From Anaerolineales bacterium (lineage in GTDB: Bacteria; Chloroflexota; Anaerolineae; CG2-30-64-16), in contig JADGQF010000008.1 in the NCBI GenBank assembly GCA_017882045.1, positions 1-42,670 of the forward strand: a stretch of 42,670 bases of DNA, given 5' to 3'. The translations under genes and the position numbers were made by a program. Below, one piece after another: positions 8,805-32,713 of the stretch (position 1 is its first letter; every line of letters starts with the position of its first letter). Below the pieces are notes generated by a model. The model was not told the origin of the DNA, did not search any database, and was given only the letters and a program-made list of their open reading frames with translations.

Positions 8805-9034
8805 AGGCGGGAGTCTGGCTGCGGCGCGTCGTCGTTAAGGACCAGCACCTGCGCGTGCGTCGGATCGTCGACGAGCGTGAAGTGCGCCATGACCAGCGCC
8901 TGGCGCACGCGGCCGTCGGGTCCCGCATAATAGACGGATGGCGCGGCGCCGGGTTGAACCGACTGGGCGCACGCAGGGTAAACGCCGAGGAAGACAAGAA
9001 CGAGGGCAATCAAAACGGCAGTGTTTCGGCGCAT
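8801..9034 (-). pseudogene. Truncated N-terminal piece of a secreted protein
   Basis: 77 codons from ATG 9034. A clear signal peptide (MRRNTAVLIALVLVFLGVYP then ACAQS) is followed by about 55 residues containing VYYAGPDGRVRQAL and THAQVLVLNDDAPQPD. The latter looks like the start of a Rossmann-like strand-turn in a larger extracytoplasmic protein, and the frame then stops after seven more codons exactly where the flippase begins. I read it as the front of a gene whose body was deleted together with the front of the flippase. A real 77-residue secreted protein cannot be excluded. Divergent from the glycosyltransferase at 9232. Confidence 0.5.
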
Positions 9035-10668: not shown

Positions 10669-10719
10669 AAAGATCGTTCGGGGCTCCTGCCCTGCGGCAA
10701 GAAAGAGAGAACGGGATCC

Positions 10720-13939: not shown

Positions 13940-14252
13940 TTACTGATGGCGCACAGTCCCGCGGCGCAGGCCCTCCAGCAGCGCGGCGTAAGAGGCCCGC
14001 TCGAGGGGCAATGGGATGACCTGGCCTGTGTAGCTGGAGTAGATCATCGCGTTCGCCAGTTCGAGCGACATGCGCGCCTCACGCGCCGGGGCGGCCAGGG
14101 GCTTGCCCTCCAGGATTGCCGCGTGCAGGTTCCGGATCGCAGACCGCGACGAGCTCGGCGGTGGGGAGCGCGAGGGCCGGGCGGTGCGCGCCGAAAACGG
14201 TGGCGCCGGCGCCGATGACCACGTGACGGAGTTTCGCGACAGGTTGAGTCAT
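13940..14252 (-). pseudogene. Gfo/Idh/MocA oxidoreductase with internal deletion
   Basis: The front 42 codons from ATG 14252 are a normal Rossmann start (LRHVVIGAGATVFGAHRPAL then ELVAVCDPEP). At about 14131-14140 (TCCGGATCGC on the plus strand) the frame changes, and the next 63 codons are a normal C-terminal end of the same family: NLHAAILEGKPLAAPAREAR then SLELANAMIYSSYTGQVIPL and a TAA at 13940-13942. Everything between, including the EKP motif and the catalytic domain (about 250 or more codons by family length), is missing. The joint also shifts frame, so no product can be functional. Both ends are well conserved, so the deletion is recent or artefactual. Confidence 0.8.
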
Positions 14253-14292
14253 AGAAGTATCGTCCTCTCCCAGATCCAACCTTTATCTTACC

Positions 14293-15141
14293 TTACAAGT
14301 CGCGTTGCTGGAAAACCCAGACGGCGACGCCGAGGGCAACCGCGGCGTAGATGACGGCGTAAATGACCATGGCCGGGCTGGGCACCGATGTGCTGATGAA
14401 CGGCGAGTTGAACAAGCCGCTCAGCGAGGAGGGTTGCATCAGGGCGGCGGCGCGTCGCCACAGCGCCTCGGTGGGCATGATCAGGCTACTGACGATACCG
14501 ATGTTGAGCGCGGTGTCATTGTGGATCGCCGCGCCCACCTGCTCGGTCCAACCGCCCATGAACGCGAGGATGAAAAGCATGCAGACGAGCACGCCATTAG
14601 TGATGGTCGAGAACAGGGTGCCACCGAGCAGCGTCAGCGTCAGGAGCACCCACCCGACCATCATCATCAGAATCAGGCCGGCGATCAGGTTGTTGGCCAC
14701 GAAGCCGCTGATCAGGAACGAGATGAGGAGCACGCCGCCTGCCAGGAACAGGACCGTCGCACTCACCATGAGCGCGTAGCCCAGCCACTTGCCCAGCAGT
14801 ACCTCCCAGCGGGCAAGGGGTTTGGTCACGATGGATTGGATTGAGTGCGAGGCGATCTCGCCCGAGATCGTGTCGACCGAAGATAGCACCGTCACCATGA
14901 CCACAAGGAAGTTAACGGCGTAGAGGCCCATCATGGTGAAGGTATTGCTCATTTCGCGGGCCGCCAGCGGACCCGGGCCGTTTGCCCCCGCCTGGCTCGC
15001 GCGCAGGATGTCCCGGTGCAAGAAGTAGAAGCCCAGCCCGTAGAGGACCAGGAAAGCCAGGCCGAGGACCAGGCCGACCAGCAACAGGCGGCGCCGGCGG
15101 GCCTCGCGGAAGGTCAGCCAGGCGATGTAGGGCACCTTCAT
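14293..15141 (-). CDS. ABC-2 type transporter permease
   Basis: 282 residues with six predicted TM helices: about 20-40, 75-95, 118-140, 150-172, 182-200 and 258-278. The segment VDTISGEIASHSIQSIVTKP just after TM2 is the classic ABC-2/NosY-type signature ahead of the second helix pair. It is the membrane half of an exporter with the ATPase encoded immediately upstream; start ATG 15141 overlaps the ATPase stop in ATGA. Cargo is unknown. Its place behind an ECF sigma/anti-sigma pair suggests envelope-stress or toxic-compound export under that sigma factor, which is inference. Confidence 0.9.
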   Translation of the reverse strand: MKVPYIAWLTFREARRRRLLLVGLVLGLAFLVLYGLGFYFLHRDILRASQAGANGPGPLAAREMSNTFTMMGLYAVNFLVVMVTVLSSVDTISGEIASHSIQSIVTKPLARWEVLLGKWLGYALMVSATVLFLAGGVLLISFLISGFVANNLIAGLILMMMVGWVLLTLTLLGGTLFSTITNGVLVCMLFILAFMGGWTEQVGAAIHNDTALNIGIVSSLIMPTEALWRRAAALMQPSSLSGLFNSPFISTSVPSPAMVIYAVIYAAVALGVAVWVFQQRDL

Positions 15142-16064
15142 CCGGCTTCCTCTCCTTCCATCACGCGCATGAAGAATTCCTCCAGCGACAGACGCCGCGG
15201 GATCACGCTGTAGATGCGGACGCCCTGCGCGCTCAGCCAGGCTACCAGGTCCGGCACCTGTGCTTCGGACTCCAGCCGCACCACCAGGCGGCCGGCATCC
15301 AGCTTTTCGCAGGGACCGAAGCGGCTCAGGCCCTGCATGCTCTCGGGGGAGAGGCCCTCCAGGCGCAACTCCACCTCGGCCCCGGCCGCCAGCAGCTCGT
15401 CCAGCCGGCCGGTCTGCACCACCTCACCCTGGCGAATGAACGCGACCCGGTCGCAGGTGACCTCAATCTCGCTCAACAGGTGCGAGTTGAGGAAAACTGT
15501 GATACCCCGTGCGCGCAATGAGCGGATAATGTCCCGCACGAGACGCCGTCCCAGGGGGTCGAGGCCAGAGGTGGGCTCATCCAGGAATACCAGTTCAGGT
15601 TCGTTGAGCAGCGCCTGCGCCAGGCCGATGCGCTGCAGCATGCCCTTGGAGAAGTCCCGCAGTGGCTTATCTGCATGGCGCGCCAGGCCGGTGAGTTCCA
15701 GCAACTCGGGCACGCGTTGGCGCGAGACGGCGGGCGCCACACCGTAGAGGTGGGCATGCACCTCGAGGAACTCGGCCGCACGCAGCCATTCCTGAAAGCG
15801 GAAGTGCTCGGGCAGGAAGCCGACGCGCGTCCGCGAATGCCAATCGGACGGTGTGCTGCCCAGGATATGCGCGGCGCCGGCCGTGGGACGCACCAGGCCC
15901 AGGAACATCTTCAGCGAGGTCGTCTTGCCGGCGCCGTTCGGTCCCAGGAAGCCAAAAACCTCGCCGCGTTCGACGGCGAGGTTGAGATTGGCGACGGCCA
16001 CCGTTCGGCCATATTCCTTCCGCAGCCCCTCGGCGCGAATGGCCAGGTCGGACGGGCCCGTCAA
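15138..16064 (-). CDS. ABC transporter ATP-binding protein
   Basis: 308 residues. Walker A GPNGAGKTT (41-49), signature FSKGMLQR (138-145; the common LSGGQ is replaced, as often in ABC-2/NosF-like exporters), Walker B LVFLDEP (158-164), D-loop SGLDP and H-loop NSH (193-195). A C-terminal domain of about 80 residues follows, as in DrrA/NosF-like exporters. It pairs with the ABC-2 permease whose start overlaps its stop. Its own ATG 16064 overlaps the anti-sigma stop, so the sigma, anti-sigma, ATPase and permease genes are all translationally coupled. Confidence 0.95.
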   Translation of the reverse strand: MTGPSDLAIRAEGLRKEYGRTVAVANLNLAVERGEVFGFLGPNGAGKTTSLKMFLGLVRPTAGAAHILGSTPSDWHSRTRVGFLPEHFRFQEWLRAAEFLEVHAHLYGVAPAVSRQRVPELLELTGLARHADKPLRDFSKGMLQRIGLAQALLNEPELVFLDEPTSGLDPLGRRLVRDIIRSLRARGITVFLNSHLLSEIEVTCDRVAFIRQGEVVQTGRLDELLAAGAEVELRLEGLSPESMQGLSRFGPCEKLDAGRLVVRLESEAQVPDLVAWLSAQGVRIYSVIPRRLSLEEFFMRVMEGEEAG

Positions 16065-17251
16065 TTCAGCGAGTTAGCGATGCCTACCAGGGCCTGGAGG
16101 CTAAAGTTGCCCTGGATGGCATACAACATGCCGTTCGTTTCCCATACGAGGGTCGGACCGCTAGCCTGGTCGCCGCCTTTCTCGCTGCGGGCGCTGCTGG
16201 GGGCGCTCTTTTGCTCGGTCAGCAGATAACCGGTCGTGCCGCGCACGTTGACCTGCTGCACGGTCGCCGCATTCTGCGGCACCGGCACGACCAGTGTGGT
16301 GGCCCAGTCGATGCTGTTACTGAGATCGGCGGCCTGGCCGGCCGGCAGGCCCATTAGTTGCAGCCCGGCTTTCCCCAGCGCTTTGGTATCAAGCCCATCG
16401 GGGACGTCGACCTCCGGGCTGGGCGCCTGGACGATGGTCACCGCCGTTGCGCCAGACCCGTAACGCATCGTGACTACTGCCGGGATGCGCGCCGTCAGCG
16501 GCAGGCTGTCCTTGCCGGCCGGAATCGCGTCGGTGGACAAGCCGGCTGACTGCAGCAGTGCCCGGGCCGCAGCCAGGTTGACGGTGGTGCTCGCCGTGTA
16601 AGCGCCTTCGACGGCGAACTTGGTGCGTGGGCCGGCGATCGCCTCGAGTTTGTCCGGCATCAGAACCTTGAACCCGGCTGCCCGGTCAGCCGCGTCGGGG
16701 CCGGAGACATCCGCCGCCTTAGAGGGAGTCACCTGTGGCTTGCTGAAGATCTGCTCCTGGAAGCTCTGCAGGCTGTCCATCTTGGACGGGTCGAACTGGA
16801 TAACGGCAATTTTCTGCACGCGGAAAATACCCAGGAACTGGGCGGCGGCGGTGCGGACCGGATCGATGGCCATGACCGCCACCAGGGCGGCGACCAACAC
16901 CAGACTGGCCAGCGCGACGCGCCAGTGACGGTAACGAAGAGTCTGCCACATAGTAGCTAACCTCCGGTTCAGGGGATGGCTCTGCCGGGCTTGCCGGCGA
17001 GCCTCAAAGCGATGCCAGGCGGCGCGTGTCGCCGGCTCGGGCGCCTGCACGCGACCCAGCGCCTCGTAGACGAGCGCCGAGCCGGCTTGCAGGGTCTGAA
17101 GTTGTGTGACGCAGGGCCGGCAGCCGGCCAGGTGAGCTTCGACGGTGCTCAGCTCGACGTACGTCAGCTCGTGGTCCAGGTAAGCGCACAGCGCGCCTGC
17201 CGGCGGGCAACGATCCGGGCGGGATATCGGGTCAAGGGTTCGATCAGGCAT
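16061..17251 (-). CDS. Membrane-anchored ZAS-type anti-sigma factor
   Basis: 396 residues. The cytoplasmic N-terminus holds a zinc-finger anti-sigma motif, HLAGCRPC (His40-x3-Cys44-x2-Cys47) with Cys22 further upstream. One TM helix lies at about 111-129 (VALASLVLVAALVAVMAI). The remaining 265 residues are outside the membrane and of a type seen on Gram-positive and Chloroflexota anti-sigmas (QFLGIFRVQKIAVIQF opening; several beta-rich segments). It should hold the ECF sigma encoded just upstream inactive until a signal reaches the outer domain. Start ATG 17251 overlaps the sigma stop by eight bases; longer upstream frames would run inside the sigma gene. Confidence 0.88.
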   Translation of the reverse strand: MPDRTLDPISRPDRCPPAGALCAYLDHELTYVELSTVEAHLAGCRPCVTQLQTLQAGSALVYEALGRVQAPEPATRAAWHRFEARRQARQSHPLNRRLATMWQTLRYRHWRVALASLVLVAALVAVMAIDPVRTAAAQFLGIFRVQKIAVIQFDPSKMDSLQSFQEQIFSKPQVTPSKAADVSGPDAADRAAGFKVLMPDKLEAIAGPRTKFAVEGAYTASTTVNLAAARALLQSAGLSTDAIPAGKDSLPLTARIPAVVTMRYGSGATAVTIVQAPSPEVDVPDGLDTKALGKAGLQLMGLPAGQAADLSNSIDWATTLVVPVPQNAATVQQVNVRGTTGYLLTEQKSAPSSARSEKGGDQASGPTLVWETNGMLYAIQGNFSLQALVGIANSLN

Positions 17252-17825
17252 CGTGTTCCATCTCCTCGAGCTCGCCATACAGGTCGCGGAAAGCTCGCTC
17301 CGCCCGGGCCAGCAGGGTGCCGATGCTCCCCGGCGCCACGCCCAACGCGCCGGCCAACTCCGCGTAGCTGAGGCCGGCCTGGCGCAGCAGCAGCAATTGT
17401 ACCTGGCGCTCGGGCAGGCGGGCCAGAACCCCCCGCACCTTCGCCGCTGTGTCCGCCGTGGCCGCAACCATCGAGTCGCCCGCGGCGGGCTGGCCCGCGC
17501 TCTGTGCTTCTGTCAGCGCTCGCTCCTCGCGTCGCCGCCGCCGTCCCCGGCTGCGCAAAGCATTGTAAGCCAGGTTCGTTGTCACCCGCAGTAACCAACC
17601 CCGCAGGTTGTGGTTACGGCCGGCCGGCAGCGGGTGCTCGTAGAGGCGCAGAAACGCTTCCTGGGCTGCATCTTCAGCTTCGGACGCCGAGCCAAGGAGC
17701 CGGTAGGCCACTGCGAAGACCTGCGCATAATGTTCGCGAAAGATGGTCTCGAAGGCTTCCTGGCTTCCGGCCCGCAGCCCGGCAAGCAGCGCCTCGGTTT
17801 GCGACAACGGCTCACGCCCTGGCAT
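17244..17825 (-). CDS. ECF-type RNA polymerase sigma factor
   Basis: 193 residues with region 2 (FREHYAQVFAVAYRLLG, then EAEDAAQEAFLRLYEH for core binding and melting) and region 4 (LPERQVQLLLLRQAGLSYAE then LAGALGVAPGSIGTLLARAE for -35 recognition). It heads the four-gene operon with its anti-sigma and an ABC exporter, and probably drives that operon and further stress genes. Two GTG codons precede ATG 17825 in frame; no start has a strong ribosome site. Arg-rich linker RSRGRRRRREER lies between the domains. Confidence 0.92.
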   Translation of the reverse strand: MPGREPLSQTEALLAGLRAGSQEAFETIFREHYAQVFAVAYRLLGSASEAEDAAQEAFLRLYEHPLPAGRNHNLRGWLLRVTTNLAYNALRSRGRRRRREERALTEAQSAGQPAAGDSMVAATADTAAKVRGVLARLPERQVQLLLLRQAGLSYAELAGALGVAPGSIGTLLARAERAFRDLYGELEEMEHDA

Positions 17826-17894
17826 CACCACATCTCAACTTATTAACACCGCGCGCCGGCGGAATGTGACAGTGCCCTCGCCGGCCAGAGTCTA

Positions 17895-20800
17895 TCATGT
17901 CCGTCCTGCTGGCTTGCCGGCCTCTCCGGCGTTCATCACTTGTTCGGCCTGCAGCCAGAAGGTCCCCCAGCCGTCGCCGATCCAGCGCCCTCGTATCAGC
18001 AGTGGCTGCCAGGCCGGGCGCGTTTTCAGTGATTTGTCCCCCTTGACGACCACAAAGGTCTGCCCGTCTCCCAGGAAGAAGCCGTCCCCTCCCGTCCAGC
18101 CGGGCAGGCGTGCGCCCGCGACCAGGGCCGGGCGGCCCGGCTGTTCGGGCAGGCGAGCCAGCGGCAGGTGCGCGGGCAGGCTATCACGCAGCGCGTCCAG
18201 CGGATGAACACTCAGCGGCTGGCCCAGCAGCTCCATCTCCCAGGCCAGGCGTTGCCCGGGCGCCTCCGCCGCAACGTCGGGTTCCTCGAAGGGGAAGGCC
18301 ATCTGCAACGCGCTGCCGGCGTGCCGCACGTCCTCGGCCTCAAGCAGCAGGGCCGCCCGGCTCGAGCCCAGGCCATCCAGGGCGCCGCACTGGATCAGAT
18401 GGGTGATCTCCTTGGGCTGCAGCGGCACTCGCGCCAGCAGATCACGCAGGCCGGCGTACGCTCCGCCCTCGCGCTCCTGGATAATGGCTTCCGCTGAGGC
18501 GCTGCGCAGCTCGCGCACCTGGCCCAAGCCCATCCACAGGGTCTTGGGTTCGGTCAGCGTGAACAGCGCGCGGCTGTAGTTCACGTGCGGCGGCCGGACG
18601 GGGATGCCGAGCCGGATGGCCTCCGCGATGTAGATGGATTGGTGATGGAAGCCGCCCCAGCCCATCAGGCGGGCGCAGAGGAACTCGGCCGGCCAGTGGG
18701 CTTTCAGGTAAGCCGAGCGGTAGCTGACGTCGGCATACGCGGTAGCGTGGCCCTGGTTGAAGCCGTAGCCGGCGAAGGCGACGACCTGTTCCCACAGGCG
18801 CGTAGCCTGTTGGGGTGTGAAGCCAGGACCTTGCGGGGCCGGCCGCCGGCAGCCCTGCACGAACTCCTCGCGCATGGTTTCCATCTCGGCCGCGCCGAAC
18901 TTGCTCGCGCCCCGCCGCAGATGGTCGGCCTGCTTCCAACTGAAGCCGGCAATCTCGCGCGCCACGCGCAGGATCTGCTCCTGAAAGATCAGCACGCCGA
19001 AGGTCGGGCCGAGGATGGGGGCGAGCGAGGGGTGCAGGTAAGCCACCGGTTCTTCGCCCCGGTAACGGCGGACGAAGGTCGCGGCCATGCCGCCGGTCGC
19101 CGGGCCGGGCTTGAAGAAGGCATTGGCAATCGCCAGGTCGCGCACGTTGTGTGCGCGCAGCTTGCGCAGCGTGCGCTGGGCGCCCTCCGACTCGCATTGG
19201 AACACCCCGATGCTTTCGCCGCGCGCCAACAGGTCGCCGGTGGCCGGGTCGTCCAGGGGGATGTCTTCCAGGCGGAAGGCCGGGTCCTCGTTGCGGCGTA
19301 CCAGGTCGGCGGCGTCGGCCAGGACGGTCAGTGCGCTGATGCCCAGCAGATCCATCTTGGGCAGGCCGAGGGCTTCGACGTCCTTGTGGTCGAACTGAGT
19401 GATGAGGAAACCCTTTGGCGCCCACTGCACGGGTACGACGTCGGTGAGCGGCCCGGGAGTGATGACCACCCCGCCGGGATGGACGCTCAGATGGTGCGGC
19501 TGGCCGACGATCGCGTAGGCCGAGCTGACGACTTCTTTCAGCCGAGGATCGTCCAGCTCGGCCAACACGTCATCCACGGTCCGCTTGTCGCGCCGCCTTG
19601 GGTCCGGATGCCAGTCGCGCGGCAGCTTCGCCACCAGGCGCTTGATCTCCCCCTCGTCCAGCCCGTAAGCCTTGCCCGCTTCCCACACGGCCGAACGCGG
19701 GCGCATGGTGCTGACGGTGCCCACCAGGGCGACGTGATCGGCTCCGTAAGCGCGCCGCACGTATTCCAGCACCTCGTCCCGGCGGCGGCTGCAAAAGTCC
19801 AGGTCGATATCCGGCACATCGGCGCGGGCCGGGTTGAGGAAGCGCTCGAAGAGCAGGTCGTGCAGGAGCGGGTCGACGGCCGTGATGCCGATGCAGTAGG
19901 CGACCAGCGAGTTGGCAACGCTGCCCCGCGTGCTGACGGGCACGCCGGTCTCGCGGGCAAAGCGCACGATGTCCGCCACGATCAGGAAGAGCGGGGCGTA
20001 GCCGTAGGTGGTAATCGCTGCCAACTCGCCGGCCAGGCGCTCTGACGCGCCGGCAGGAGCCTGCAGGCCGTACTTGGTGGACAGCCCGCGGTGCGCGGCT
20101 TCGGCCAGCGCCTCGTCGGGCGTCTGGCCCGCGGGGAGCTTGAGCGCCGGCCAGATCGGTCTGCCATCGGGGAGGGCCGGTCCGCAGCGGGCCGCGATCT
20201 CGCCGCTGGCCGCCAGGGCGTTCTCGAACCCGGCAAAGCGCTCCGCCACCTGCGTGGGGCTGAGCCAATGGATATCCACCTCCCGGTCGCCGCCCCCCGG
20301 CAGCGCGTCGGGCGGGACCGCCTCAAGCCGGCAGTTGCGGTCTACCGCGGCCAGCAGGCGCAGACGCGAGGTTTCGCCGGGCGCCAGGCAATAGACAGGC
20401 TGCACTGCAACCGTGGGCAGGCCCAATCGCCGGGCCAGCGCGGCCACCTGGCGCGTGATGCCCAGATCGGCTGGCGCATGGATCTCGAGAGTCAGGTAGG
20501 CGTTCTCGCCGAAAATGCCCGCCAGCCGCCCGGCATACAGGTGCGCGGCCGCGCCATCCCCTGCCCGCAAGTAGCGTTCCAGCCAGCCCATGCGCCCGCC
20601 GCTGAGGCAGATCAACCCCGCCCGCTCGGCTTGCAGGTCTTCCCAGGCCAGGCCGCGGGCCGCCAATGTCTCCCTTGCCGGGCTGTCCTGCAGACGCGAC
20701 GACAGCCGGCAGAGCGAGCGATAGCCGGCCGGGCCGCTGGCCAGCAGAACCAGCCGGCCGGGCGGCTCGCCCTCGCGGCCCGGTTGCGGCGCCGCCATCG

Positions 20801-21020
20801 TGACGGCCATGCCGAGTATCGCCTGCACGCCGGCTTCCCGGCAAGCGCGCGCGAAGGCCACCGCGCCGTACAGGACGTTGGTGTCGGTCAGCGCAAGGTG
20901 GGAAAGGCCATCGGCTGCGGCGCGCGCGGCCAGGCTGCCGACCGAGGCCGTGCCCCCGAGCAGCGTGTAGTGAGAATGGACTTCCAGGTGAGTGAATGTG
21001 CCCACCGTGCCGTCGGACAT
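17895..21020 (-). CDS. DnaE-family DNA polymerase III alpha subunit (short, DnaE2/error-prone-like length)
   Basis: 1041 residues. N-terminal PHP domain (HLEVHSHYTLLGG at 11-23, ALTDTNVLYGA; the usual HxHSxYS histidine/serine pattern is altered). Polymerase palm with PDIDLDF at about 404-410. Fingers carry FGVLIFQEQI, RRGASKF and AGYGFNQGHATAYA. A helix-hairpin-helix/OB-like tail ends in FVVVKGDKS and WGTFWLQAEQV. The replicative DnaE is usually 1150 or more residues, whereas DnaE2/ImuC-type enzymes are about this length and have the GFHHQSIYIAEAIRLGIPV type segment, so translesion or repair synthesis is likely; no imuA or imuB lies here. ATG 21020 has no ribosome site but sits seven bases after a good -10, so the mRNA is probably leaderless. 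Confidence 0.9.
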   Translation of the reverse strand: MSDGTVGTFTHLEVHSHYTLLGGTASVGSLAARAAADGLSHLALTDTNVLYGAVAFARACREAGVQAILGMAVTMAAPQPGREGEPPGRLVLLASGPAGYRSLCRLSSRLQDSPARETLAARGLAWEDLQAERAGLICLSGGRMGWLERYLRAGDGAAAHLYAGRLAGIFGENAYLTLEIHAPADLGITRQVAALARRLGLPTVAVQPVYCLAPGETSRLRLLAAVDRNCRLEAVPPDALPGGGDREVDIHWLSPTQVAERFAGFENALAASGEIAARCGPALPDGRPIWPALKLPAGQTPDEALAEAAHRGLSTKYGLQAPAGASERLAGELAAITTYGYAPLFLIVADIVRFARETGVPVSTRGSVANSLVAYCIGITAVDPLLHDLLFERFLNPARADVPDIDLDFCSRRRDEVLEYVRRAYGADHVALVGTVSTMRPRSAVWEAGKAYGLDEGEIKRLVAKLPRDWHPDPRRRDKRTVDDVLAELDDPRLKEVVSSAYAIVGQPHHLSVHPGGVVITPGPLTDVVPVQWAPKGFLITQFDHKDVEALGLPKMDLLGISALTVLADAADLVRRNEDPAFRLEDIPLDDPATGDLLARGESIGVFQCESEGAQRTLRKLRAHNVRDLAIANAFFKPGPATGGMAATFVRRYRGEEPVAYLHPSLAPILGPTFGVLIFQEQILRVAREIAGFSWKQADHLRRGASKFGAAEMETMREEFVQGCRRPAPQGPGFTPQQATRLWEQVVAFAGYGFNQGHATAYADVSYRSAYLKAHWPAEFLCARLMGWGGFHHQSIYIAEAIRLGIPVRPPHVNYSRALFTLTEPKTLWMGLGQVRELRSASAEAIIQEREGGAYAGLRDLLARVPLQPKEITHLIQCGALDGLGSSRAALLLEAEDVRHAGSALQMAFPFEEPDVAAEAPGQRLAWEMELLGQPLSVHPLDALRDSLPAHLPLARLPEQPGRPALVAGARLPGWTGGDGFFLGDGQTFVVVKGDKSLKTRPAWQPLLIRGRWIGDGWGTFWLQAEQVMNAGEAGKPAGRT

Positions 21021-21027
21021 GGGGTTT

Positions 21028-21056
21028 ATGATAGACGCGCGGCAGGGAAATGGCAA
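21028..21056 (-). promoter_or_regulatory. Promoter of the DnaE gene, leaderless geometry
   Basis: On the minus strand: TTGCCA (21051-21056), exactly 17 bp, TATCAT (21028-21033), then seven bases AAACCCC and ATG 21020. The expected start of transcription coincides with the start codon. Confidence 0.65.
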
Positions 21057-21078
21057 GGGTAGTCAGACTGCATCTGGC

Positions 21079-22167
21079 TCAAATGCTCTGCAGCACGTCC
21101 TGCAACACTTCCAGGCCGCGATCGACCAGCGCCAGGCTGGCCTGCGCGCCCATGTGGCCGATGCGGAAGACGCTGCCGGCCAGCGGGCCGAGCGAGCCGC
21201 CGACTGCCAGGCCGCGCGCCCGCAAGGCGCGGTCGAGGGCCGGCCAGCCGATGCCCTCGGGCATACGGACGGCGGTGACCGTCGGCGAGCAGTCGTGGTC
21301 GCTCGCGGGCAATAGGTCCAGGCCCAGCGCGCGCAGGCGCTGCCGGCAGTGTGCCGCTACTACCGCGTGCCGGCCAATGACCGCCTCCAGCCCTTCCTCG
21401 AGGACCAGGCGGCAGGCCACGTCCAGCGCGGCTGTGCTCTGCCAGGCCGGGATGTAGGGGAACCAGCGGTCGGCGAGGGCGGTGCGCCAGGGCTTGAGCG
21501 CATCGTAGCCGGCATAGTCGACCTCGTCAATGATCTGCCAGGTACGCTGGCTCACGGAGACGATCGACATGTCCGGGAAGGCGGTGAGGCACTTCTGCGA
21601 GCCGGCCAGGCACAGGTCGATTCCCCAGTCGTCCACCCGCAGGGGCGCCCCGCCCGCGCTGGCCACCGCGTCGACGTAGAACAGGGGCACGCCGTAGGCG
21701 CGCACCAGGCCGCCGATTTCCGCGACCGGGTTGAGCGTGCCGGAAGGTGTCTCGCAATGGATCGCAGTGACCAGCTTGGGCCGGAACGAACGGATCGCTT
21801 CCTCGACACGCCCCGGATCGGCGGTCGCGTTGAAGGCGAAGTGTACGGTCTCGACCTCTGCGCCGATCTGGCGCGCCATATCACCCACGCCGGCGCCGAA
21901 GACACCGGTCGAAACCGCCAGCACGCGCTCTCCTGGGCGCAGGCAGGACTTGAGGGCGCCACACAACGCCAGCATGCTCTCGCCGGTCATGATCGCCAGC
22001 TGGTTGCCGGTTCCGAGGATCTGCTGTAGGCGGATCTGCAGGCAGGTGTAAAGCCCGGCGTACTCGGGCTCCAGGTCCGCCGAGCCGTAGTCGGTCAGGT
22101 AAGCTTCGCGCACGGTCTGCGGCGCCGTCGTCGGCCCGGGCACGAGCGGAATCGCATACGTCTCCAT
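21079..22167 (-). CDS. Class V PLP aminotransferase (alanine/serine-glyoxylate type)
   Basis: 362 residues. N-terminal IPLVPGPTTAPQTVREA is typical of the alanine-glyoxylate/serine-glyoxylate/pyridoxamine-pyruvate group. YVDAVASAGG supplies the PLP-ring aspartate and GSQKCLTAFPDMSIVS the Schiff-base lysine. The end (GSVFRIGHMGAQASLALVDR) is also standard. It moves an amino group to glyoxylate or pyruvate; the exact amino donor is open. ATG 22167 has GGAGG seven bases upstream. It lies 50 bp after the TIM-barrel gene on the same strand, and both may serve the same small catabolic route. Confidence 0.92.
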   Translation of the reverse strand: METYAIPLVPGPTTAPQTVREAYLTDYGSADLEPEYAGLYTCLQIRLQQILGTGNQLAIMTGESMLALCGALKSCLRPGERVLAVSTGVFGAGVGDMARQIGAEVETVHFAFNATADPGRVEEAIRSFRPKLVTAIHCETPSGTLNPVAEIGGLVRAYGVPLFYVDAVASAGGAPLRVDDWGIDLCLAGSQKCLTAFPDMSIVSVSQRTWQIIDEVDYAGYDALKPWRTALADRWFPYIPAWQSTAALDVACRLVLEEGLEAVIGRHAVVAAHCRQRLRALGLDLLPASDHDCSPTVTAVRMPEGIGWPALDRALRARGLAVGGSLGPLAGSVFRIGHMGAQASLALVDRGLEVLQDVLQSI

Positions 22168-22217
22168 GCTGTTACCTCCACCGCCCATCGCACCCTGGCG
22201 GAGCGCCGCGTCAGTCG

Positions 22218-23114: not shown

Positions 23115-23132
23115 GTTTGTCTCCTTTTCCCC

Positions 23133-24206: not shown

Positions 24207-24222
24207 CGGCGATGCATCCTAA

Positions 24223-24948: not shown

Positions 24949-24957
24949 GAGTTGCGT

Positions 24958-24963
24958 ATTGTA
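24958..24963 (-). promoter_or_regulatory. Possible -10 (TACAAT) of the phosphatase gene
   Basis: TACAAT on the minus strand ends nine bases before ATG 24948. No convincing -35 is seen at 16-18 bp, so the call is weak. Confidence 0.35.
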
Positions 24964-25035
24964 GCACAAGATGAACCGTTGGGTAGTTTTCCAGCGCCCT
25001 GGACCTCGGTGATGAGGTTGGCGATGATCGGCGAG

Positions 25036-25107
25036 AATGGCGAGATCCAATTTGTCTAGCGCCAGGATGCGACCGTAGCGCTTGCTGAGGCCAACCACGC
25101 GCAGCAT
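25036..25107 (-). pseudogene. ABC transporter ATPase, N-terminal 24 codons only
   Basis: ATG 25107 opens LRVVGLSKRYGRILALDKLD, the stereotyped first strand pair and Y-loop of an ABC ATPase. Around 25030 similarity ends: the Walker A that should come about 15 residues later is absent and the frame runs into the phosphatase leader. The joined sequence downstream (a different frame reads SPIIANLITEVQGAGKLPNG) might be the tail of another protein, but I cannot name it. This is a gene front left at a deletion joint. Confidence 0.6.
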
Positions 25108-25358
25108 GGCTGCGGCCTGCGCAGGTAGCGGGCGCGCGCCGACACGCCCGCGGTCAACCGGCAGGCGCGCGCCGCCGCGGCCACCGGCAGGGTGCCGAGG
25201 CCGCACGAGGCGGTTATCAGGGCGCGTTGCATCAGGTCAGCGCGCGCGAGCTCTTTTTGCACCACCAGGTCCAGCGCCAGCTCGCATGCCTCGTGCGGGT
25301 CGGTCAGCGGCAGGCTTCCCAGGGCGGCCGGAAGGCAGCCAGGCTCGAAAGCGGCCAT
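25056..25358 (-). pseudogene. MetE/UROD-like methionine synthase family gene with central deletion
   Basis: ATG 25358 starts an N-terminus with GSLPLTDPHEACELALDL, which resembles the opening of cobalamin-independent methionine synthase/UROD-like proteins (IGSLPHTDPEEAC type). After about 32 codons, near 25262, it jumps in frame to LARADLMQRALITASCGLGT, which is the C-terminal end of the same family (the LITPSCGLG zinc-cysteine strand). About 250-300 residues holding the barrel core are missing. The tail after residue 75 runs out of frame with family ends and overlaps the ABC remnant. It starts four bases after the flavin reductase stop, so these were one operon. Confidence 0.65.
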
Positions 25359-25361
25359 CCG

Positions 25362-25892
25362 CTATGTCTGCTGCGCCTGGCCGGCCAGGGCGCGCACCGC
25401 CAGGATCTCGCCGAAGTAGACCCGGTGGAAGTCACCTTGCGGGTAGAAGCGTTCCTGGATCTGCGCGGTCAGCGCCTCGGGTTGAAGATCGTTGAAGTGG
25501 ACCGGCTGGCATTCGTAAATGACGGAGGAGCCGGCAATGCCCGGCACGCTGATCTGAGTAGACGGCACTGTCGACAGGTTAAGCTCACGAAACTTGTCGT
25601 GACTGCGCCCCGACTTGCTGCCACAGACGTCGATGATAGGACGCATATCGGGCGCCGGGACGCAGACTGTGAAGGCGCTGCCTTCCTCGAGCAACTGGTA
25701 GGTAAAGCGGGACGGTCGCACCATCACGATGAAGATCGCCTTGTTCCAGATGGCGCCGATTGTGCCCCAGCCGATCACCATGGCGTTCAGGTAGCCCTCA
25801 TTGCCCTGGGTGACCAACAGGCAGCCGGGCTCGTCGAGCGCAGCCACTGTCTCTTTGAAGCACGCCGTGTATGGGACGTCGATGTATTCCAT
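25362..25892 (-). CDS. Flavin reductase-like FMN-binding split-barrel protein
   Basis: 176 residues. Segments NAMVIGWGTIGAIWNKAIFI and MVRPSRFTYQLLEEGSAFTV are the flavin reductase-like split barrel, which binds FMN at the dimer face. The central GSKSGRSHDKFRELNL and the closing HRVYFGEILAV strands also match the family. Members reduce flavins with NAD(P)H or act as small flavoproteins passing electrons. GGAGGAG stands just before ATG 25892. It is divergent from the aldo/keto reductase gene at 26071, with 178 bp between. Confidence 0.9.
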   Translation of the reverse strand: MEYIDVPYTACFKETVAALDEPGCLLVTQGNEGYLNAMVIGWGTIGAIWNKAIFIVMVRPSRFTYQLLEEGSAFTVCVPAPDMRPIIDVCGSKSGRSHDKFRELNLSTVPSTQISVPGIAGSSVIYECQPVHFNDLQPEALTAQIQERFYPQGDFHRVYFGEILAVRALAGQAQQT

Positions 25893-26026
25893 GATCTCCT
25901 CCTACTCCATCTATTGTACCAGGGAACAGGTGAATGGGCGAGTATGCGCCGTTCGGGTTGAGATTCCGTATGCTGAATCACCCCCATCTTATGACCCAGG
26001 TCATGTGGCCCGGACGGATGCCGTCC

Positions 26027-26032
26027 TATAAT
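26027..26032 (+). promoter_or_regulatory. -10 element (TATAAT) of the aldo/keto reductase gene
   Basis: A perfect TATAAT lies 38 bp before ATG 26071, with a poor -35 (ATGTGG region). The ribosome site GAGGAGGGG at 26057-26065 follows. The rest of the 25893-26070 spacer shows no other structure. Confidence 0.5.
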
Positions 26033-26070
26033 GGAGCGATATCAATGGCGCCACATGAGGAGGGGATAGG

Positions 26071-27237
26071 ATGCAATACCGCAATTTCGGCAAGTTGGAT
26101 TGGAAGGTTTCCGCGTTGGGCCTTGGCGCCATGCGCCTGCCGGTCATTGACGCGGACGCCGGGCACATCGACGAGGCGAAGGCGACGAAGCTGGTACGCT
26201 ACGCCATCGACCACGGCGTCAACTACGTCGACACGGCCTATCCGTATCACCTCGGCAACTGCGAGTCGTTCCTCGGCCGGGCGCTGAAGGACGGCTACCG
26301 CGCGCGCGTCAAACTCGCGACCAAGCAGCCGTGCTGGCTGGTGAAGGAGCGGGCCGACTTCGACCGTTTGCTGGATGAGCAGCGGGCGCGACTGGATACG
26401 GCGACGATCGACTTCTATCTGCTGCATGCGCTGGATGCCGAACGCTGGCACGCGGTTCGCGACCTGGGCGTACTCGACTGGGCTGAACGGGCCATGGCCG
26501 ACGGCCGCATCGGGCATCTCGGCTTCTCCTTCCATGACAACTACGACGTGTTCCAGGAAATCGTCGACGCCTACGCTGGCTGGACGTTCTGCCAGATTCA
26601 ATACAACTACCTGGATGAGGACCGCCAGGCCGGCACGCGCGGGCTGGAGTATGCCGCCGACAAGGGGTTGGGTGTGGTCGTGATGGAGCCGTTGCGCGGT
26701 GGCTTGCTGGCCGGCAGAGCCGGGCAGCGTCCGGGCAAGGGGCTGCCGCCCACCATCCAGGCGCTGTGGGATTCTGCAACTCAGCGCCGCAGCGCAGCCG
26801 GCTGGGCTCTGCAGTGGCTATGGCACAAGCCGTCGGTATCGCTGGTATTGAGTGGCATGAGCACGCTGGCGCAGGTTAAAGAAAATGTGGCTAGCGCTAA
26901 TGGCTCACGTCCCGGCCTGCTGACGAGCGAGGAACTCACCCTGGTCAGCCGCGTACGCGACGAGTACCGCCGTCTCACGCCGATTCCCTGTACGGAGTGC
27001 AAGTATTGCCAGCCCTGCCCGAACGGAGTCAACATCCCGACGATCTTCGCGTTCTACAACGCGGCGATGATGTTCAACGCGCCGGGGCACGCCCGCCATA
27101 GCTACAGCAACTCGGTGCCGGAGGCTGAACGCGCGGATAAGTGCCTGCAGTGCGGGGAGTGCGAGAGCCAGTGCCCACAGAAGATCGAGATCATGCAGTG
27201 GCTGCCCAAGGTGCACGAGTACCTGACTGCACTATAA
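26071..27237 (+). CDS. Aldo/keto reductase with C-terminal 2x[4Fe-4S] ferredoxin domain
   Basis: 388 residues. AKR barrel residues 1-285: GLGAMRLP, VDTAYPYH (Asp54, Tyr59), KLATKQ (Lys85) and FYLLHALD (His) form the usual Asp-Tyr-Lys-His tetrad. After a helical linker come two cysteine motifs, CTECKYCQPCPNG and CLQCGECESQCPQ, each with the spacing of a [4Fe-4S] site. This AKR-ferredoxin architecture is common in anaerobes and may let the enzyme exchange electrons with ferredoxin as well as NAD(P)H. Substrate unknown. It stands alone on the plus strand with a strong ribosome site. Confidence 0.93.
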   Translation: MQYRNFGKLDWKVSALGLGAMRLPVIDADAGHIDEAKATKLVRYAIDHGVNYVDTAYPYHLGNCESFLGRALKDGYRARVKLATKQPCWLVKERADFDRLLDEQRARLDTATIDFYLLHALDAERWHAVRDLGVLDWAERAMADGRIGHLGFSFHDNYDVFQEIVDAYAGWTFCQIQYNYLDEDRQAGTRGLEYAADKGLGVVVMEPLRGGLLAGRAGQRPGKGLPPTIQALWDSATQRRSAAGWALQWLWHKPSVSLVLSGMSTLAQVKENVASANGSRPGLLTSEELTLVSRVRDEYRRLTPIPCTECKYCQPCPNGVNIPTIFAFYNAAMMFNAPGHARHSYSNSVPEAERADKCLQCGECESQCPQKIEIMQWLPKVHEYLTAL

Positions 27238-27244
27238 GCAGATT

Positions 27245-27454
27245 GTGATCAAACGAGGCGCCGACTTGGTGCCGGTCAGGCTGGGTAAGCCCCTGGATAA
27301 GCGCCTGGCCGGCCGCGAGGCCGTGGTCGTCGTCAGGGTCGAGAAGGCCGCGGCCTACGAGGTGACGGGCATCCAGCGAATGAGCGGCGGCGCACGGCGT
27401 TTCAGCTTCGCCGAGGAACTCGTGAGCGAAGCTATTCCCGACCCGGCCGCCTGA
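27245..27454 (+). CDS. Small hypothetical ORF or C-terminal gene fragment
   Basis: 69 codons from GTG 27245 to TGA. Third positions are strongly GC-rich and the product (DLVPVRLGKPLDKRLAGREA, VVVVRVEKAAAYEVTGIQRM) is protein-like, so the plus frame beats the minus frame over the same DNA. There is no ribosome site, and the frame is open back into the reductase gene, so it may be the tail of a gene cut by deletion. It overlaps the 3' end of the GH51 pseudogene by 23 bp, convergently. I recognise no family. Confidence 0.4.
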   Translation: MIKRGADLVPVRLGKPLDKRLAGREAVVVVRVEKAAAYEVTGIQRMSGGARRFSFAEELVSEAIPDPAA

Positions 27455-29025
27455 GCTCAACCTCGATCCAATTGACCGAGCTGGGCCGCAGCAACATGCT
27501 CACGATGCCTCCCGTGGCCATCACTCGCCACTGTTGCAGAGCAAAACGCTGCGGATCAGCCGGTGAAGTTATGGCTGAGTAGTCCGCGAAGGCCAGCGTT
27601 CTCACTTCAACCGGCCCTTCGATGCGCTCGCCGGCAACCTCCACGCTCAGCGGGATCTCTTTCGACAGGTGTACGTTGACCGCCGCGACGATCATCCGCC
27701 GGCGCTGGGCGACGTTGTCGGGTTGGGTGAGCAGGACGGCGGGCGCTCTCCTCGCTGCCGTGATAGCCCCCTTGCCAGGCCCCGTACGACTCATTGCCCA
27801 CTTCTCACAGCCGCACATTGTAAGGCATTTCGTCGCCGTGGCGCGCCCGCAGGCAACCCATGGGCGTGTCTGCCGCGCCGTTGCAGTATTCCACCCAGGC
27901 CGCGGCTTCCTCTGCCGAGCCCGTCCCTGCATTGACGGTGATCTGCGGTTCGGCCCCGATCAGCCGGCAGAAGTGGAGGAAGTCGGCGCTGCCGAAGGTG
28001 TTGTACTCGAGCCCACCCCAGGCCGGGTTAGGGCGGACAGGGCGTAGGTCCGCAGGCCCGACCCCGTCGCGCCAGTGGTAGTAGCTGACGAAATTGCCGC
28101 CGGGCCAGCGCAGAAGGGGACGTGCCAGTCGCCTGCCAGGCGGAGCACATCCGGGTCCAGCCCGTCGACGTGGTCCGCCGGGAGCAGTTGGGCTCGATCG
28201 ATCAGCAGATCGACAGCTTCGTTGGCATCCGCCGGGTTCCAGCGTATGTAGAAGTCGACTGGCTCGCCCTCCGCGACCGCGCCGGGGGGCAGCTCCAGCC
28301 GGAAGGGCAGCTTGTGCCAGGTGTTGGCGGCAACGGGCAACTCCTGGTGCGCGAGGCAGGATCCGGCGGGGGAACCAGGTCCTCCCAGCCGGCGCCGGAT
28401 ACCTATCTCCACCGCCCCGTAGGCCGCTTCCAGGCGGGGTTGCGCCCGCTGCGTGGCCGCGCGCAGCCACAGGTCGCCCGTGCAGGCGGACACGCGCTGC
28501 GTGGGCAGAAAGACGCCCTGACGCACGCCCGCCGGCCCATCGTCCAGCGGGACAGTGTCCAGATCTGGCGCGGCCGGACTGCCGGCGCGCAGCCGCACGG
28601 CGCCGCCGATCCGCCCCACCGAGGCCGAGACCGCGCGGTAATGGCCGAGCGGCGCCCAGGACAGCGGTACGCCCTCCGCAGTGTGGTCGTCGAGGATCGT
28701 CACCCCGAAGCCGGTCGCGCCTGTGCCGGGTGTCCAGCGCGGGGGGAGCGAGCGCGGGTTGCGCCGGGAGACAAAGAAGTCGGTCAGGTAGCGGCCTGCC
28801 CGCTCTAGCTGGTGCAGCGAGCGGCGCGAGAGGTTGGCGTCGCGCTCGAAACCGGGGTTGGATAGGACCTGGGCCCACACCCCGCCGTAGATGGCGAAGC
28901 CCGGGTGTTCCAGGAAGTTGCCGAAGATGCGCGCTGGCGAGGTCGGCCACCAGACGGGCCGTCCGGCTATCTTCCCCAGTCCGCTGAAACCGGGTGGGAA
29001 CTCCGCCGTAGGTTAGCTCAGCCAT
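27432..29025 (-). pseudogene. GH51-type alpha-L-arabinofuranosidase, multiply disrupted
   Basis: ATG 29025 has AGGAGG six bases upstream, but the frame soon shifts; from about 28960 another frame carries RIFGNFLEHPGFAIYGGVWA, the GH51 opening. A long middle section is normal until about 28111-28120, where a base lost near AGGGGA shifts frame to LLRWPGGNFVSYYHWRDGVG. That runs to YNVRL, then TGA at 27805-27807 stands exactly where the family has Trp in WEVGNE, just before the acid/base glutamate. After GYHGSEE (about 27750) the sequence jumps with a frame change to the C-terminal sandwich (MIVAAVNVHLSKEIPLSVEV to TAG 27432). The nucleophile region is deleted. Four independent lesions make this a true pseudogene or a very error-rich stretch. 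Confidence 0.85.
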
Positions 29026-29124
29026 GTCAAGCCTCCTCGCTCGTCTACCATGGCGCTCATCATAGCCCTCGACTACCGGATGGTCTAAATATCGTTCTCC
29101 ACGTACTGTTACATTACGGGTATA

Positions 29125-30237
29125 TTACGGGCCGATCTTTGGCGCCGGCTGGGGATCAGTAGTCGGGCCGTTGAGGACAGGTTTACCGTTCCGCCAATCC
29201 AGCCGATCCAGCCACATATAGCGGCTGTCGCCGCGCGTGCCGCCGACGATGTTCCACGCATGGTAGAACATCCAGGTTTGCCCGCCGCTGTCCAGAATGG
29301 ACTCGCCGCCCGGGCCGATAACCAGTGGCGGCTGCAGCCGGCTCTTCAAAATCGGGTTCTCTTTGGCCTGCTCGCAGGGACCGAGGGCCGACTGGCACAG
29401 CGCGTAGCCGACGGCGTAATTGGCCGAGCCATAGTCGTTGGCGGAGAAGAACAGGTAGTAGCCGCTGCCGTGCTTGACCATGAACGGCGCTTCGATCAGG
29501 TGGCCTTCCCAGAGTTCCTGGTTTTGGGTCAGCCGTTTTGGCTGTCCGCTCAGGCTCAGCCCATCCGCGCTCAGCTCCTGAACGTAGAGATAAGTTGTGA
29601 TCCCGCAGCAGTTACCGTCGTTCTTCCAATAGAGATACAGCTTGCCGCCGTCCGCCAAGGGCTGAGGATCGATCGAGCCGCCCTCATCGGCCTGGCATAC
29701 CAGCGCTTTCTGGCTGTTGTCCTTGAAGATGTCTTCCGGCTTGTCGCTGGTTGCCACGCCCACGCATTGCTTGTTGCTCGCAGTGTCGCGCGCCGTGTAA
29801 TACATGGCGTAGCGGTTTGCGATCCGGATGACGCCCGGCGCCCAGACGAGCGAGCCGCCGAGCTGCGCCCAAGCGGGCAAGGCAGGCAGAGCGTCGTTGA
29901 GCAGGTCCCAATGGATGAGGTCGGTGGAGCGCGCGACCTGGATGTTCTTGCCTGCTCCATTCGTGGCGTAAGCATAAAAGGCGTTGCCGGCCTGTATCAC
30001 GTCCGGGTCCGGGAAGTCCGCGTTGAGGACCGGGTTCTGGAACGAACCGGCCGGCGTTGTGGCGGCTTGCGTCGTCGCGGCGGGCTGCGCCGTGGTTGCC
30101 GGGGCCGCCTGCGCGCCCTGGTCGCCCGTCCGGGCCGGCCCACACGCGCCGGCGAGGAGGAGGAGCACCAGGAGTGGCAGGAGTCTGCCAATAATCTCAG
30201 GGCGACGGCGCAGCGGATGGGAACGGATAATCGGCAC
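29125..30237 (-). CDS. GH43-like secreted glycosidase lipoprotein
   Basis: 370 residues. Signal peptide LLPLLVLLLLAGAC with lipobox cysteine at about 32, then an Ala/Thr-rich linker to residue 63. The five-bladed GH43 propeller follows: NADFPDPDVIQAG (first catalytic Asp), GSIDPQPLADGGK (second Asp, pKa modulator) and HLIEAPFMVKHGSGYYLFFS (catalytic Glu). All three acids are present. It probably trims arabinose or xylose side chains outside the cell, which would have fed the GH51 enzyme whose broken gene follows on the same strand. Start GTG 30237 has AAGGA nine bases upstream. Confidence 0.92.
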   Translation of the reverse strand: MPIIRSHPLRRRPEIIGRLLPLLVLLLLAGACGPARTGDQGAQAAPATTAQPAATTQAATTPAGSFQNPVLNADFPDPDVIQAGNAFYAYATNGAGKNIQVARSTDLIHWDLLNDALPALPAWAQLGGSLVWAPGVIRIANRYAMYYTARDTASNKQCVGVATSDKPEDIFKDNSQKALVCQADEGGSIDPQPLADGGKLYLYWKNDGNCCGITTYLYVQELSADGLSLSGQPKRLTQNQELWEGHLIEAPFMVKHGSGYYLFFSANDYGSANYAVGYALCQSALGPCEQAKENPILKSRLQPPLVIGPGGESILDSGGQTWMFYHAWNIVGGTRGDSRYMWLDRLDWRNGKPVLNGPTTDPQPAPKIGP

Positions 30238-30298
30238 GCTAATCGGTCCTTCCTATTTCCGCTATTTCTCTTATCTGGCCAGCCGGAGCTTCAGCCGC

Positions 30299-30799
30299 TC
30301 ATGGGCTTGGGGCATCCGCCAGCGCGTTCTGCTTACCTGTCAGCGTTTCGACCCGGATACGGCCGATGGTTATGGCCGCGACCTTGAGGTCGGTCAGCAG
30401 CCGGGCCTTGACGGCGGCCGGGTCCGGCTCGAAACGGTCGATCATGAGCGCCAGGATCCGCCGCTTCTCGTCCGCTTCCTCGACAAACTCGGCACGGCCG
30501 GCAAAGTGCACCGAGCGGTAAGCGTGGTCGCACCTGTCAACCACGTAACCGCGGTCCTCGACCACCTGCCCCCATACCAGCGGGTTGGAGTGCAAATAGT
30601 CGATCTTTTTGCCGTGGTCCGCCGAGTGGAAGAAGAAACAGTTTTCCGCCGGGTCATAGGCGAAGTCGACGGTGACCAGGTAAGGCCGGTTGTCCTGGCA
30701 GAGGGCCAGGGTCATGACTTGCTGCCCGGCAATGATTTCGAGCAGTTCGGCCTGGTCGTCGATCATCAACTCGGGACGGCGAAAGTGGAATTCGCTCAT
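30299..30799 (-). CDS. Pyridoxamine 5'-phosphate oxidase-related flavin split-barrel protein
   Basis: 166 residues. MTLALCQDNRPYLVTVDFAY then FFFHSADHGKKIDYLHSNPL is the NimA/PNPOx-like split barrel, and SVHFAGRAEFVEEADEKRRI closes the flavin site. Such proteins bind FMN, F420 or heme and reduce small molecules. Its ATG 30799 overlaps the P450 stop in ATGA, so the two are co-translated and may act as redox partner and oxygenase, or in linked detoxification. That link is inference. Confidence 0.88.
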   Translation of the reverse strand: MSEFHFRRPELMIDDQAELLEIIAGQQVMTLALCQDNRPYLVTVDFAYDPAENCFFFHSADHGKKIDYLHSNPLVWGQVVEDRGYVVDRCDHAYRSVHFAGRAEFVEEADEKRRILALMIDRFEPDPAAVKARLLTDLKVAAITIGRIRVETLTGKQNALADAPSP

Positions 30800-32196
30800 T
30801 GGTGTTGGCTCAGCTCCTTCGGACCTTGTTTGACCTCAGCGCGAGGCATTGTAACGGTGTCGGGGCGGCGCTGCAAGGTCATTGGCAAGCCGTCGCGCGG
30901 CCGCAGGGTGATGAGAGGGCGCAGCTCGACCGGCCGGCCCGCTACCGGGCGCAGCTGCCAGCGGCGCGCCAGCGTGGCCAGCATGAGGATGCCCTCCGTC
31001 CAGGCGAACTGCTCGCCGATGCACATGCGCGGCCCACCGCCGAACGGGAAGTAGCTGAACTTGGGGCGGGCCGCTTCGGTCTCCGGTGTCCAGCGCTCGG
31101 GATCGAAGCGGTACGGATCAGGATAGTAGCGCGGGTCGTGGTGCATCACCCATTGGCTCGCCAGGATCCCCGAACCGGCCGGCACGACGTAGTCGCCCAC
31201 CGGGTAGTCGGCGAGCGCCATGCGGCCCACCACCCAGGCAGGCGGATAGAGCCGCATGGCTTCGCACATGATCCGGCGCGTATGTTGCAGCCTGGGCAGG
31301 TCGTCAAAGGTGGGCAGCCGGTCTCCCAGGGTCCGGTCCACTTCCTGGTGCAGCCTGGCCTCGGCTTCCGGGTGCCGGCCGAGCAGGTACCACATATAGG
31401 TCAGAGCGTTGGCCGTCGTCTCGTGGCCTGCCAGGAACAGCGTCATCGCTTCATCGCGCACCTGCCGGTCGGTCATCCCGCTGCCGTCCGTATCCTGGGC
31501 CAGCAGCAACATGGAGAGCAAGTCGCCCCGGTCCCGGCTGCCGGCGCGGTGTTCGTCGATGATGCGGTAGATGGTCGCATTCAGCCGTGCCTGGGCCTCT
31601 CGGAAGCGCCGGTTGCTGGGCAAGGGCAGGCGGTCGAGCAGCGGGCCGAAGAGCGACAGGCGCCGGCCAAACAGATCCAGCGCCTGGGTCAGGGCGCCGC
31701 CGATCTCGTCGGCCTCACCCTCTACATCCGCATCGAAGAGCGTCGTGCCGACCACGGCCAGGGTCAGGCGCATCATCTCGTGGTGAATATCGACCTGGGC
31801 GCCGTCCTGCCAGCGATCGCTCGTGCGCGCCGCGCAGTCCGCCATCACCCCGGCATAGCCGGCCAGGCGTTGGCGGTGGAAAGCGGGCTGCACCAGGCGG
31901 CGCTGGCGCAGGTGTGACTCGCCCTCGTTGGTCAGCAGGCCATTGCCCAGGAGCGCATTCGCCCGCTTGAGGGCCTTGCCCTTGTGGAAATTGCGGCTGT
32001 CCGTCACCAGCAGGTCCCGGATGTAGTCCGGGTGATTGAACAGATACAGGTGGTCCGGCCCGAGCCGGAAGTGCACGATATCGCCGTACTCGTGCGCGGC
32101 GTTCTCAAGAAACGCCAGCGGATCACGCTGAAAGCCTTGCATCTGTCCCAGCGGTGACAGCGAGCGAGGTCCGGGCGGGTAGCGTACCTTCGCCAT
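30796..32196 (-). CDS. Cytochrome P450
   Basis: 466 residues, soluble bacterial type. I-helix LFLAGHETTANAL (oxygen activation), K-helix EAMRLYPPAWVVGR (ExxR), PERW segment FDPERWTPE, and heme loop FPFGGGPRMCIGEQFA with ligand Cys392. No membrane anchor and no fused reductase. It looks more like the CYP4/CYP102-clan style proteins of bacteria (PPGPRSLSPLGQ proline-rich front) than the class I CYPs. Substrate is unknown. AGGAG lies four bases before ATG 32196. A palindrome at 32216-32237 lies just upstream and may be its operator. Confidence 0.95.
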   Translation of the reverse strand: MAKVRYPPGPRSLSPLGQMQGFQRDPLAFLENAAHEYGDIVHFRLGPDHLYLFNHPDYIRDLLVTDSRNFHKGKALKRANALLGNGLLTNEGESHLRQRRLVQPAFHRQRLAGYAGVMADCAARTSDRWQDGAQVDIHHEMMRLTLAVVGTTLFDADVEGEADEIGGALTQALDLFGRRLSLFGPLLDRLPLPSNRRFREAQARLNATIYRIIDEHRAGSRDRGDLLSMLLLAQDTDGSGMTDRQVRDEAMTLFLAGHETTANALTYMWYLLGRHPEAEARLHQEVDRTLGDRLPTFDDLPRLQHTRRIMCEAMRLYPPAWVVGRMALADYPVGDYVVPAGSGILASQWVMHHDPRYYPDPYRFDPERWTPETEAARPKFSYFPFGGGPRMCIGEQFAWTEGILMLATLARRWQLRPVAGRPVELRPLITLRPRDGLPMTLQRRPDTVTMPRAEVKQGPKELSQHQ

Positions 32197-32215
32197 AGGA
32201 CTCCTTCACGCACAA

Positions 32216-32237
32216 ACCCGTGCACGGACCCGTGCAC
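32216..32237. promoter_or_regulatory. Operator-like palindrome / tandem repeat upstream of P450
   Basis: ACCCGTGCAC occurs twice (32216-32225, 32228-32237). The inner part is also an inverted repeat, GTGCACGG-AC-CCGTGCAC (32220-32237), with 8-bp arms. It lies 20-41 bp before the P450 start and next to the RsgA remnant's stop, the right place for a regulator site. Confidence 0.5.
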
Positions 32238-32241
32238 AAGC

Positions 32242-32713
32242 CTACTCAGCCAGCGACTCGTAGATCTTGGTATAGCTGTCGTAGCGCACTGCCGAGATCC
32301 AGCCGGCCTGTACGGCCGGTCTGACGGCGCAGCCGGGCTCGCCGGTGTGCGAGCAGTCGTCGAAGCGGCAGTGTTCGCCGATGAGCGTGAGCTCGCGGTA
32401 AAACGCGCTGAGCTCGCGCCGCGGGCGCTTCTTGGGCCGGCCGGTCCGGCTCGCGCTGTTGCGTGAGCGCGCTCGTCAGGAGAGTGCGCCGCCGCTCGCG
32501 CTCGCCGCGCGGCATCAACCTTTCTTCCGCGCTCACGTCCAGGTCATAGAACGCATCGAGGTTATCGGTATCGAAATTCCAGTCTTTGCGCCGTGTCTCG
32601 TCCGGCTTGCGGTTGCGTTTCACTTGCTTGCGCACCGTGAGCACGCTGCGCACCGTGTGCAGCGTCTTGTTCTCTTCGATATGCCGGCAGGTTAACTCTT
32701 CACGAGTAGGCAC
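32242..32713 (-). pseudogene. rsgA: RsgA ribosome-assembly GTPase with GTPase domain deleted
   Basis: The front, from GTG 32713 with GGAGG eight bases upstream, reads EELTCRHIEENKTLHTVRSV, then a basic stretch, RRKDWNFDTDN and ERLMPRGERERRR; such charged extensions precede RsgA in some Chloroflexota (from memory, moderate trust). After about 80-85 codons, near 32440-32465, the frame changes and the RsgA C-terminal zinc domain follows: LSAFYRELTLIGEHCRFDDC, SHTGEPGCAV and GWISAVRYDSYTKIYESLAE, then TAG 32242-32244. The C-terminal identification is strong (C-x5-C-x-H-x5-C pattern). The OB domain and the permuted GTPase domain between are absent, so 30S maturation activity is lost unless a second copy exists. 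Confidence 0.75.

Follow-up and report, generated by a model that had tools for sequence, protein, structure and literature searches.

The window, which is the whole stretch of 42,670 nucleotides analysed and the entire contig C448, contains four genes on the minus strand that retain both ends and lack a middle of ~740-800 bp compared with intact homologues. These hollow genes had been described in a sequence-only reading and are real in the sequence. The joint count of that reading was too low, as five genes contain six in-gene joints in total. The joints probably represent local misassembly or collapsed gaps, judging from the pattern of lesions described below. The MAG comprises 4.85 Mb in 462 contigs, with a completeness of 99.3% and a contamination of 6.13%. 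Homologues of the window genes point to Chloroflexota, close to Anaerolineae MAGs.

Hollow genes and their joints

Missing lengths were sized by alignment to intact homologues fetched from related genomes. This gave the deletion sizes that the sequence-only reading had proposed to determine, and they fell at ~740-800 bp in all four genes first named. The hollow RsgA (32245-32713, minus strand) lacks the GTPase domain. Its N-terminal piece extends up to ~32450 and its C-terminal piece starts at 32421, placing the joint at ~32421-32450. The gap was 740-752 bp by the best-fitting references and ~797 bp by two references. It was the sole rsgA match in the genome, and no second copy was found there. 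An rsgA match above the family cut-off was present in 13 of the 25 genomes searched, and three of nine family relatives had none. The hollow GH51 arabinofuranosidase-like gene (27435-28934, minus strand) has its joint at ~27735-27750. The N-terminal piece ends at ~27740, the C-terminal piece begins at ~27735 and 246-251 aa (~740-750 bp) are absent. The MetE/UROD-like gene (25110-25358, minus strand) is joined in frame at ~25262-25280, with 257-262 aa (~780 bp) missing compared with its homologues. The Gfo/Idh/MocA oxidoreductase (13958-14252, minus strand) has lost its frame at ~14125-14143 along with ~800 bp.

The fifth gene is a flippase (Polysacc_synt-like) gene with an N-terminal domain (7495-9034, minus strand), which is hollowed by two internal joints. 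The first (8805-8818, minus strand), with ~690 bp missing and the frame lost, had been read as a fusion of different genes at ~8810. This was incorrect, since homologues hold both pieces in one frame of 845-975 aa. In a search with the combined pieces, six genomes had a single gene of that length that united the flippase with the N-terminal piece, ~690 bp apart. A seventh homologue, in the related genome G002, ends at 656 aa, where it is cut by a contig end. The second joint (~7908; 7905-7911, minus strand) was absent from the sequence-only reading. Here ~342 bp (114 aa) are lacking compared with every homologue covering the site, and the frame is lost. A plain 1-bp indel at 7906 was rejected, because the homologues carry 114 extra residues at this position. 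The flippase pieces comprised 431 codons without a stop and were 66-71% similar to intact homologues, which is comparable to many homologue-homologue pairs. The ratio of changes at codon positions 1 and 2 to those at position 3 was also similar to that of intact homologues. The pieces show no relaxed constraint despite the two large gaps. For a gene that otherwise looks fully constrained, two large deletions imply that the loss either happened very recently or did not happen.

The only joint between genes lies at ~25030 (25000-25115, minus strand). It leads from the start of an ABC-transporter ATPase (~24 aa) into the region upstream of a histidine phosphatase, and its earlier assignment as a between-gene joint stands from reading of the sequence. 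The ATPase piece gave no family match, being too short. At least five family relatives have rsgA immediately ahead of the histidine phosphatase, and some of these then carry a stand-alone GyrA C-terminal-like gene. In the window, the histidine phosphatase (24223-24963) and the GyrA-like gene are found together, and rsgA is 7.3 kb away. Genes for a P450, GH43, GH51, an aldo/keto reductase, a flavin reductase and the UROD-like protein lie between, with joint 25030 at one edge. The separation of rsgA from the histidine phosphatase may be due to an insertion or a further misjoin. The GyrA-like reading frame (23133-24206) resembles the C-terminal beta-propeller of DNA gyrase A. It is intact, and family relatives carry it close to the histidine phosphatase with 55-63% conservation. 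Its interpretation as a truncated gyrase was rejected, as relatives hold the same stand-alone protein intact.

Three small lesions accompany the joints, all on the minus strand. In GH51, a TGA replaces a conserved Trp codon (27805-27807) and a 1-base frame change occurs within a C run (28116-28119), both within about 380 bp of the GH51 joint. Such lesions would be compatible with true pseudogene status or with low coverage of a stretch close to a contig break. A small frame change in an M20 peptidase gene (~41547; 41546-41549) separates two parts that are contiguous by eye. Relaxed constraint was not visible in the short C-terminal piece of RsgA; GH51 had the one nonsense codon and the one frameshift.

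Properties of the joints

The frame is kept at one of the six in-gene joints, that of the UROD-like gene, and lost at the other five. Short sequence overlaps, estimated from protein alignments, could reach ~2-8 bp at 7908, ~5-13 bp at GH51 and ~15 bp at the UROD-like joint. Up to ~19 bp were readable in both frames at the Gfo joint. RsgA gave no such estimate, as its N-terminal linker lacks conservation. Long repeats are not a general trait of the joints, as 7908 allows for just ~2-8 bp and Gfo for up to ~19 bp. The statement that the joints share no motif was confirmed, with shared 8-mers not exceeding chance. A shared extreme of GC content or a hairpin was likewise not found; GC ranged from low to high and strong folding was limited to Gfo and RsgA. 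Collapse in the assembly graph would require a long exact repeat (k-mer) at every joint. None was found at 7908, where the overlap is so small that repeat collapse cannot account for the joints in general. Gap closing without support, or chimeric templates, would have to be invoked, as such joins require no repeat.

The missing lengths are bounded. They are 342, ~690, ~740, ~740, ~780 and ~800 bp in the window and ~300, ~750 and ~885 bp elsewhere in the genome. A constant deletion size as a signature was rejected: the four genes first named fall at 740-800 bp, but 342 bp are missing in the flippase and ~300 to ~885 bp elsewhere. Some joints are closely spaced, with 25030 and ~25270 lying ~240 bp apart and two joints located inside the flippase gene.

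Frequency of joints in the window and in the genome

The sequence-only reading had considered so many joints within single genes unexpected. This did not withstand a simple calculation with random deletions placed over the restored gene lengths of the window. The probability that both ends of a deletion fall in one gene was 0.37-0.41 for 740-800 bp and 0.68 for 342 bp, resulting in P = 0.36 for at least four in-gene joints of seven. For at least six of seven, P was 0.03, a value that overstates the case, since in-gene joints are far easier to recognise than between-gene ones. A codon-usage frame model detected four frame switches without a stop in the 42.7 kb window, compared with 13 in 617 kb and nine in 199 kb of other contigs. 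This corresponds to 9.4 per 100 kb in the window and ~2.7 per 100 kb over 816 kb of other contigs, rates that are not strict tests, as the region was picked for looking odd. The window hence holds more joints than expected with respect to density, and the supposed preference for gene interiors was not upheld.

A homologue-based survey that covered ~36% of the sequence revealed further joints elsewhere. An amidase on C444 (~2390) lacks ~750 bp with the frame kept, an M20-type amidohydrolase on C454 (~11640) lacks ~885 bp, and ~300 bp are absent from a gene on C105. On contig C440, several damaged genes occur in a row (1682, 9461-11093, 13656). The family matches of a nitrilase and of a cyclase are each split into two parts lying apart. 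The FAD subunit of a xanthine dehydrogenase continues into the final part of the molybdenum subunit, and the frame of an M24 peptidase changes. Four of the five Aldedh matches in the genome were full length and intact, and the fifth was partial without a stop. Most of the 17 aminotransferase I/II matches had long open frames and one partial match had a stop. Since matches to these two families are mostly intact, the damage is concentrated on few contigs (C448, C440). The partial aminotransferase match (G000:C242:18220-18876, profile positions 124-361) contains an internal TAG and is possibly another damaged gene. Control stretches of three related MAGs yielded one clear case and some likely differences in domain architecture. 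The clear case is a 498-aa frame at position 2408 of G003:C1, which aligns with the two termini of a protein of 1,628 aa and lacks ~3.4 kb.

The genes for dnaE, GH38, GH3 and P450 in the window are whole, and we agree with the previous argument that such neighbours speak against uniformly low sequence quality. The window region 17895-21056 encodes one of the three DNA polymerase III alpha-type genes of the genome (open frames of 1480, 1055 and 1086 aa). No N letters were present in the window or in the first 20 other contigs read. Most window blocks fitted the rest of the genome in tetranucleotide composition, with block 14135-25030 at the edge of the background. Block 25030-32200 was normal for the genome, and a foreign origin was rejected for it. 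The aldo/keto reductase of the window had a best match of 73% among the contigs of other genomes searched, none of which belongs to the same genus.

Origin of the joints

Under local misassembly, a poorly covered stretch would have been joined falsely at the assembly, scaffolding or gap-closing step, or chimeric templates would have formed before it. Both flanks of a joint would be true and in the right order and orientation, with the 0.3-0.8 kb between them dropped, and the organism itself probably carries full genes. The joints, their sizes, the loss of frame, the unrelaxed flippase flanks and the intact relatives are observed; we infer that the joins had no read support and at which assembly step they were made. 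The flanks look functional up to the joints, as the constraint comparison of the flippase showed, with GH51 as the exception. Large internal deletions (six, or seven with 25030) outnumber the three clear point lesions. Published pseudogene spectra are dominated by nonsense mutations and end truncations, with shares of about 74% and 21% in one genome and 26% and 51% in another (PMC1508146). The contrast between these spectra and the lesions of the window is moderate and not decisive. The bounded sizes, the paired joints, a bin of 462 contigs with 6.13% contamination and the clustering on C448 and C440 also favour misassembly. Local assembly errors are a documented general problem of MAGs (PMC7111523). 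The window resembles such errors and the misjoins addressed by metaMIC (PMC7111523; PMC9661791) in its single-point joins that lack the true intervening sequence, in gene models that are damaged although the contig is otherwise good, and in the occurrence of several such cases in a draft genome. Misjoins are defined by missing read support, and the joints of the window are candidates for them. Against misassembly, the nonsense codon and frameshift of GH51 and the frameshift of M20 resemble the decay of a pseudogene, or else may be errors due to low coverage. Moreover, dnaE and several long genes are intact, the short overlaps (up to ~19 bp at Gfo) are also compatible with deletion in vivo, and the xanthine dehydrogenase case on C440 would require a gap of ~2 kb.

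The two explanations offered previously were repeated assembly collapse and rapid deletional decay through short homologies; the sequence patterns lend better support to the former than to the latter. Real and recent deletions are a less probable but tenable explanation. Accessory genes would have lost selection and, through losses of 0.3-0.8 kb by short homology or end joining, become young pseudogenes. The genes hit are mostly accessory, GH51 combines three kinds of lesion, and the frame is kept at just one of six in-gene joints, as expected without selection. The complete lack of rsgA in three of nine family relatives and joint overlaps of a few to ~19 bp would fit as well. This explanation is weakened by flippase pieces without relaxed constraint, few point lesions per deletion, homologues in relatives that are intact except for contig-end truncation, and the marked concentration on few contigs. 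Bacterial pseudogenes with internal deletions (PMC1508146) likewise consist of recognisable family pieces that have lost their frame relative to intact homologues, and to this likeness GH51 contributes its frameshift and nonsense codon. The window differs from them in its excess of large internal deletions over point lesions and its unrelaxed flippase flanks. A deletion-prone lineage, in which a repair defect or end joining repeatedly removes 0.3-0.9 kb with little or no homology, is improbable; accessory genes on one segment would have been hollowed almost simultaneously while their flanks stayed pristine. It is most improbable that the short forms are retained as working mini-proteins, or that a programmed deletion system trims catalytic cores. 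The genes retain both ends of one family and the UROD-like and C444 amidase joints are in frame, yet five of the six in-gene joints in the window are out of frame, the joints have no motif or structure in common, the families are unrelated and the short form occurred in none of the relatives examined.

Altogether, the pattern is most like faulty metagenome joins. Failing this, a few ordinary deletions of recent date would explain it better than a new biological process. If the joins are artefactual, which seems likely, a draft genome of 99% completeness can show odd fused genes and false absences, such as that of RsgA, that arise from assembly alone. Should they be real, this contig would offer an uncommon example of gene loss driven by deletion, caught at its very beginning.
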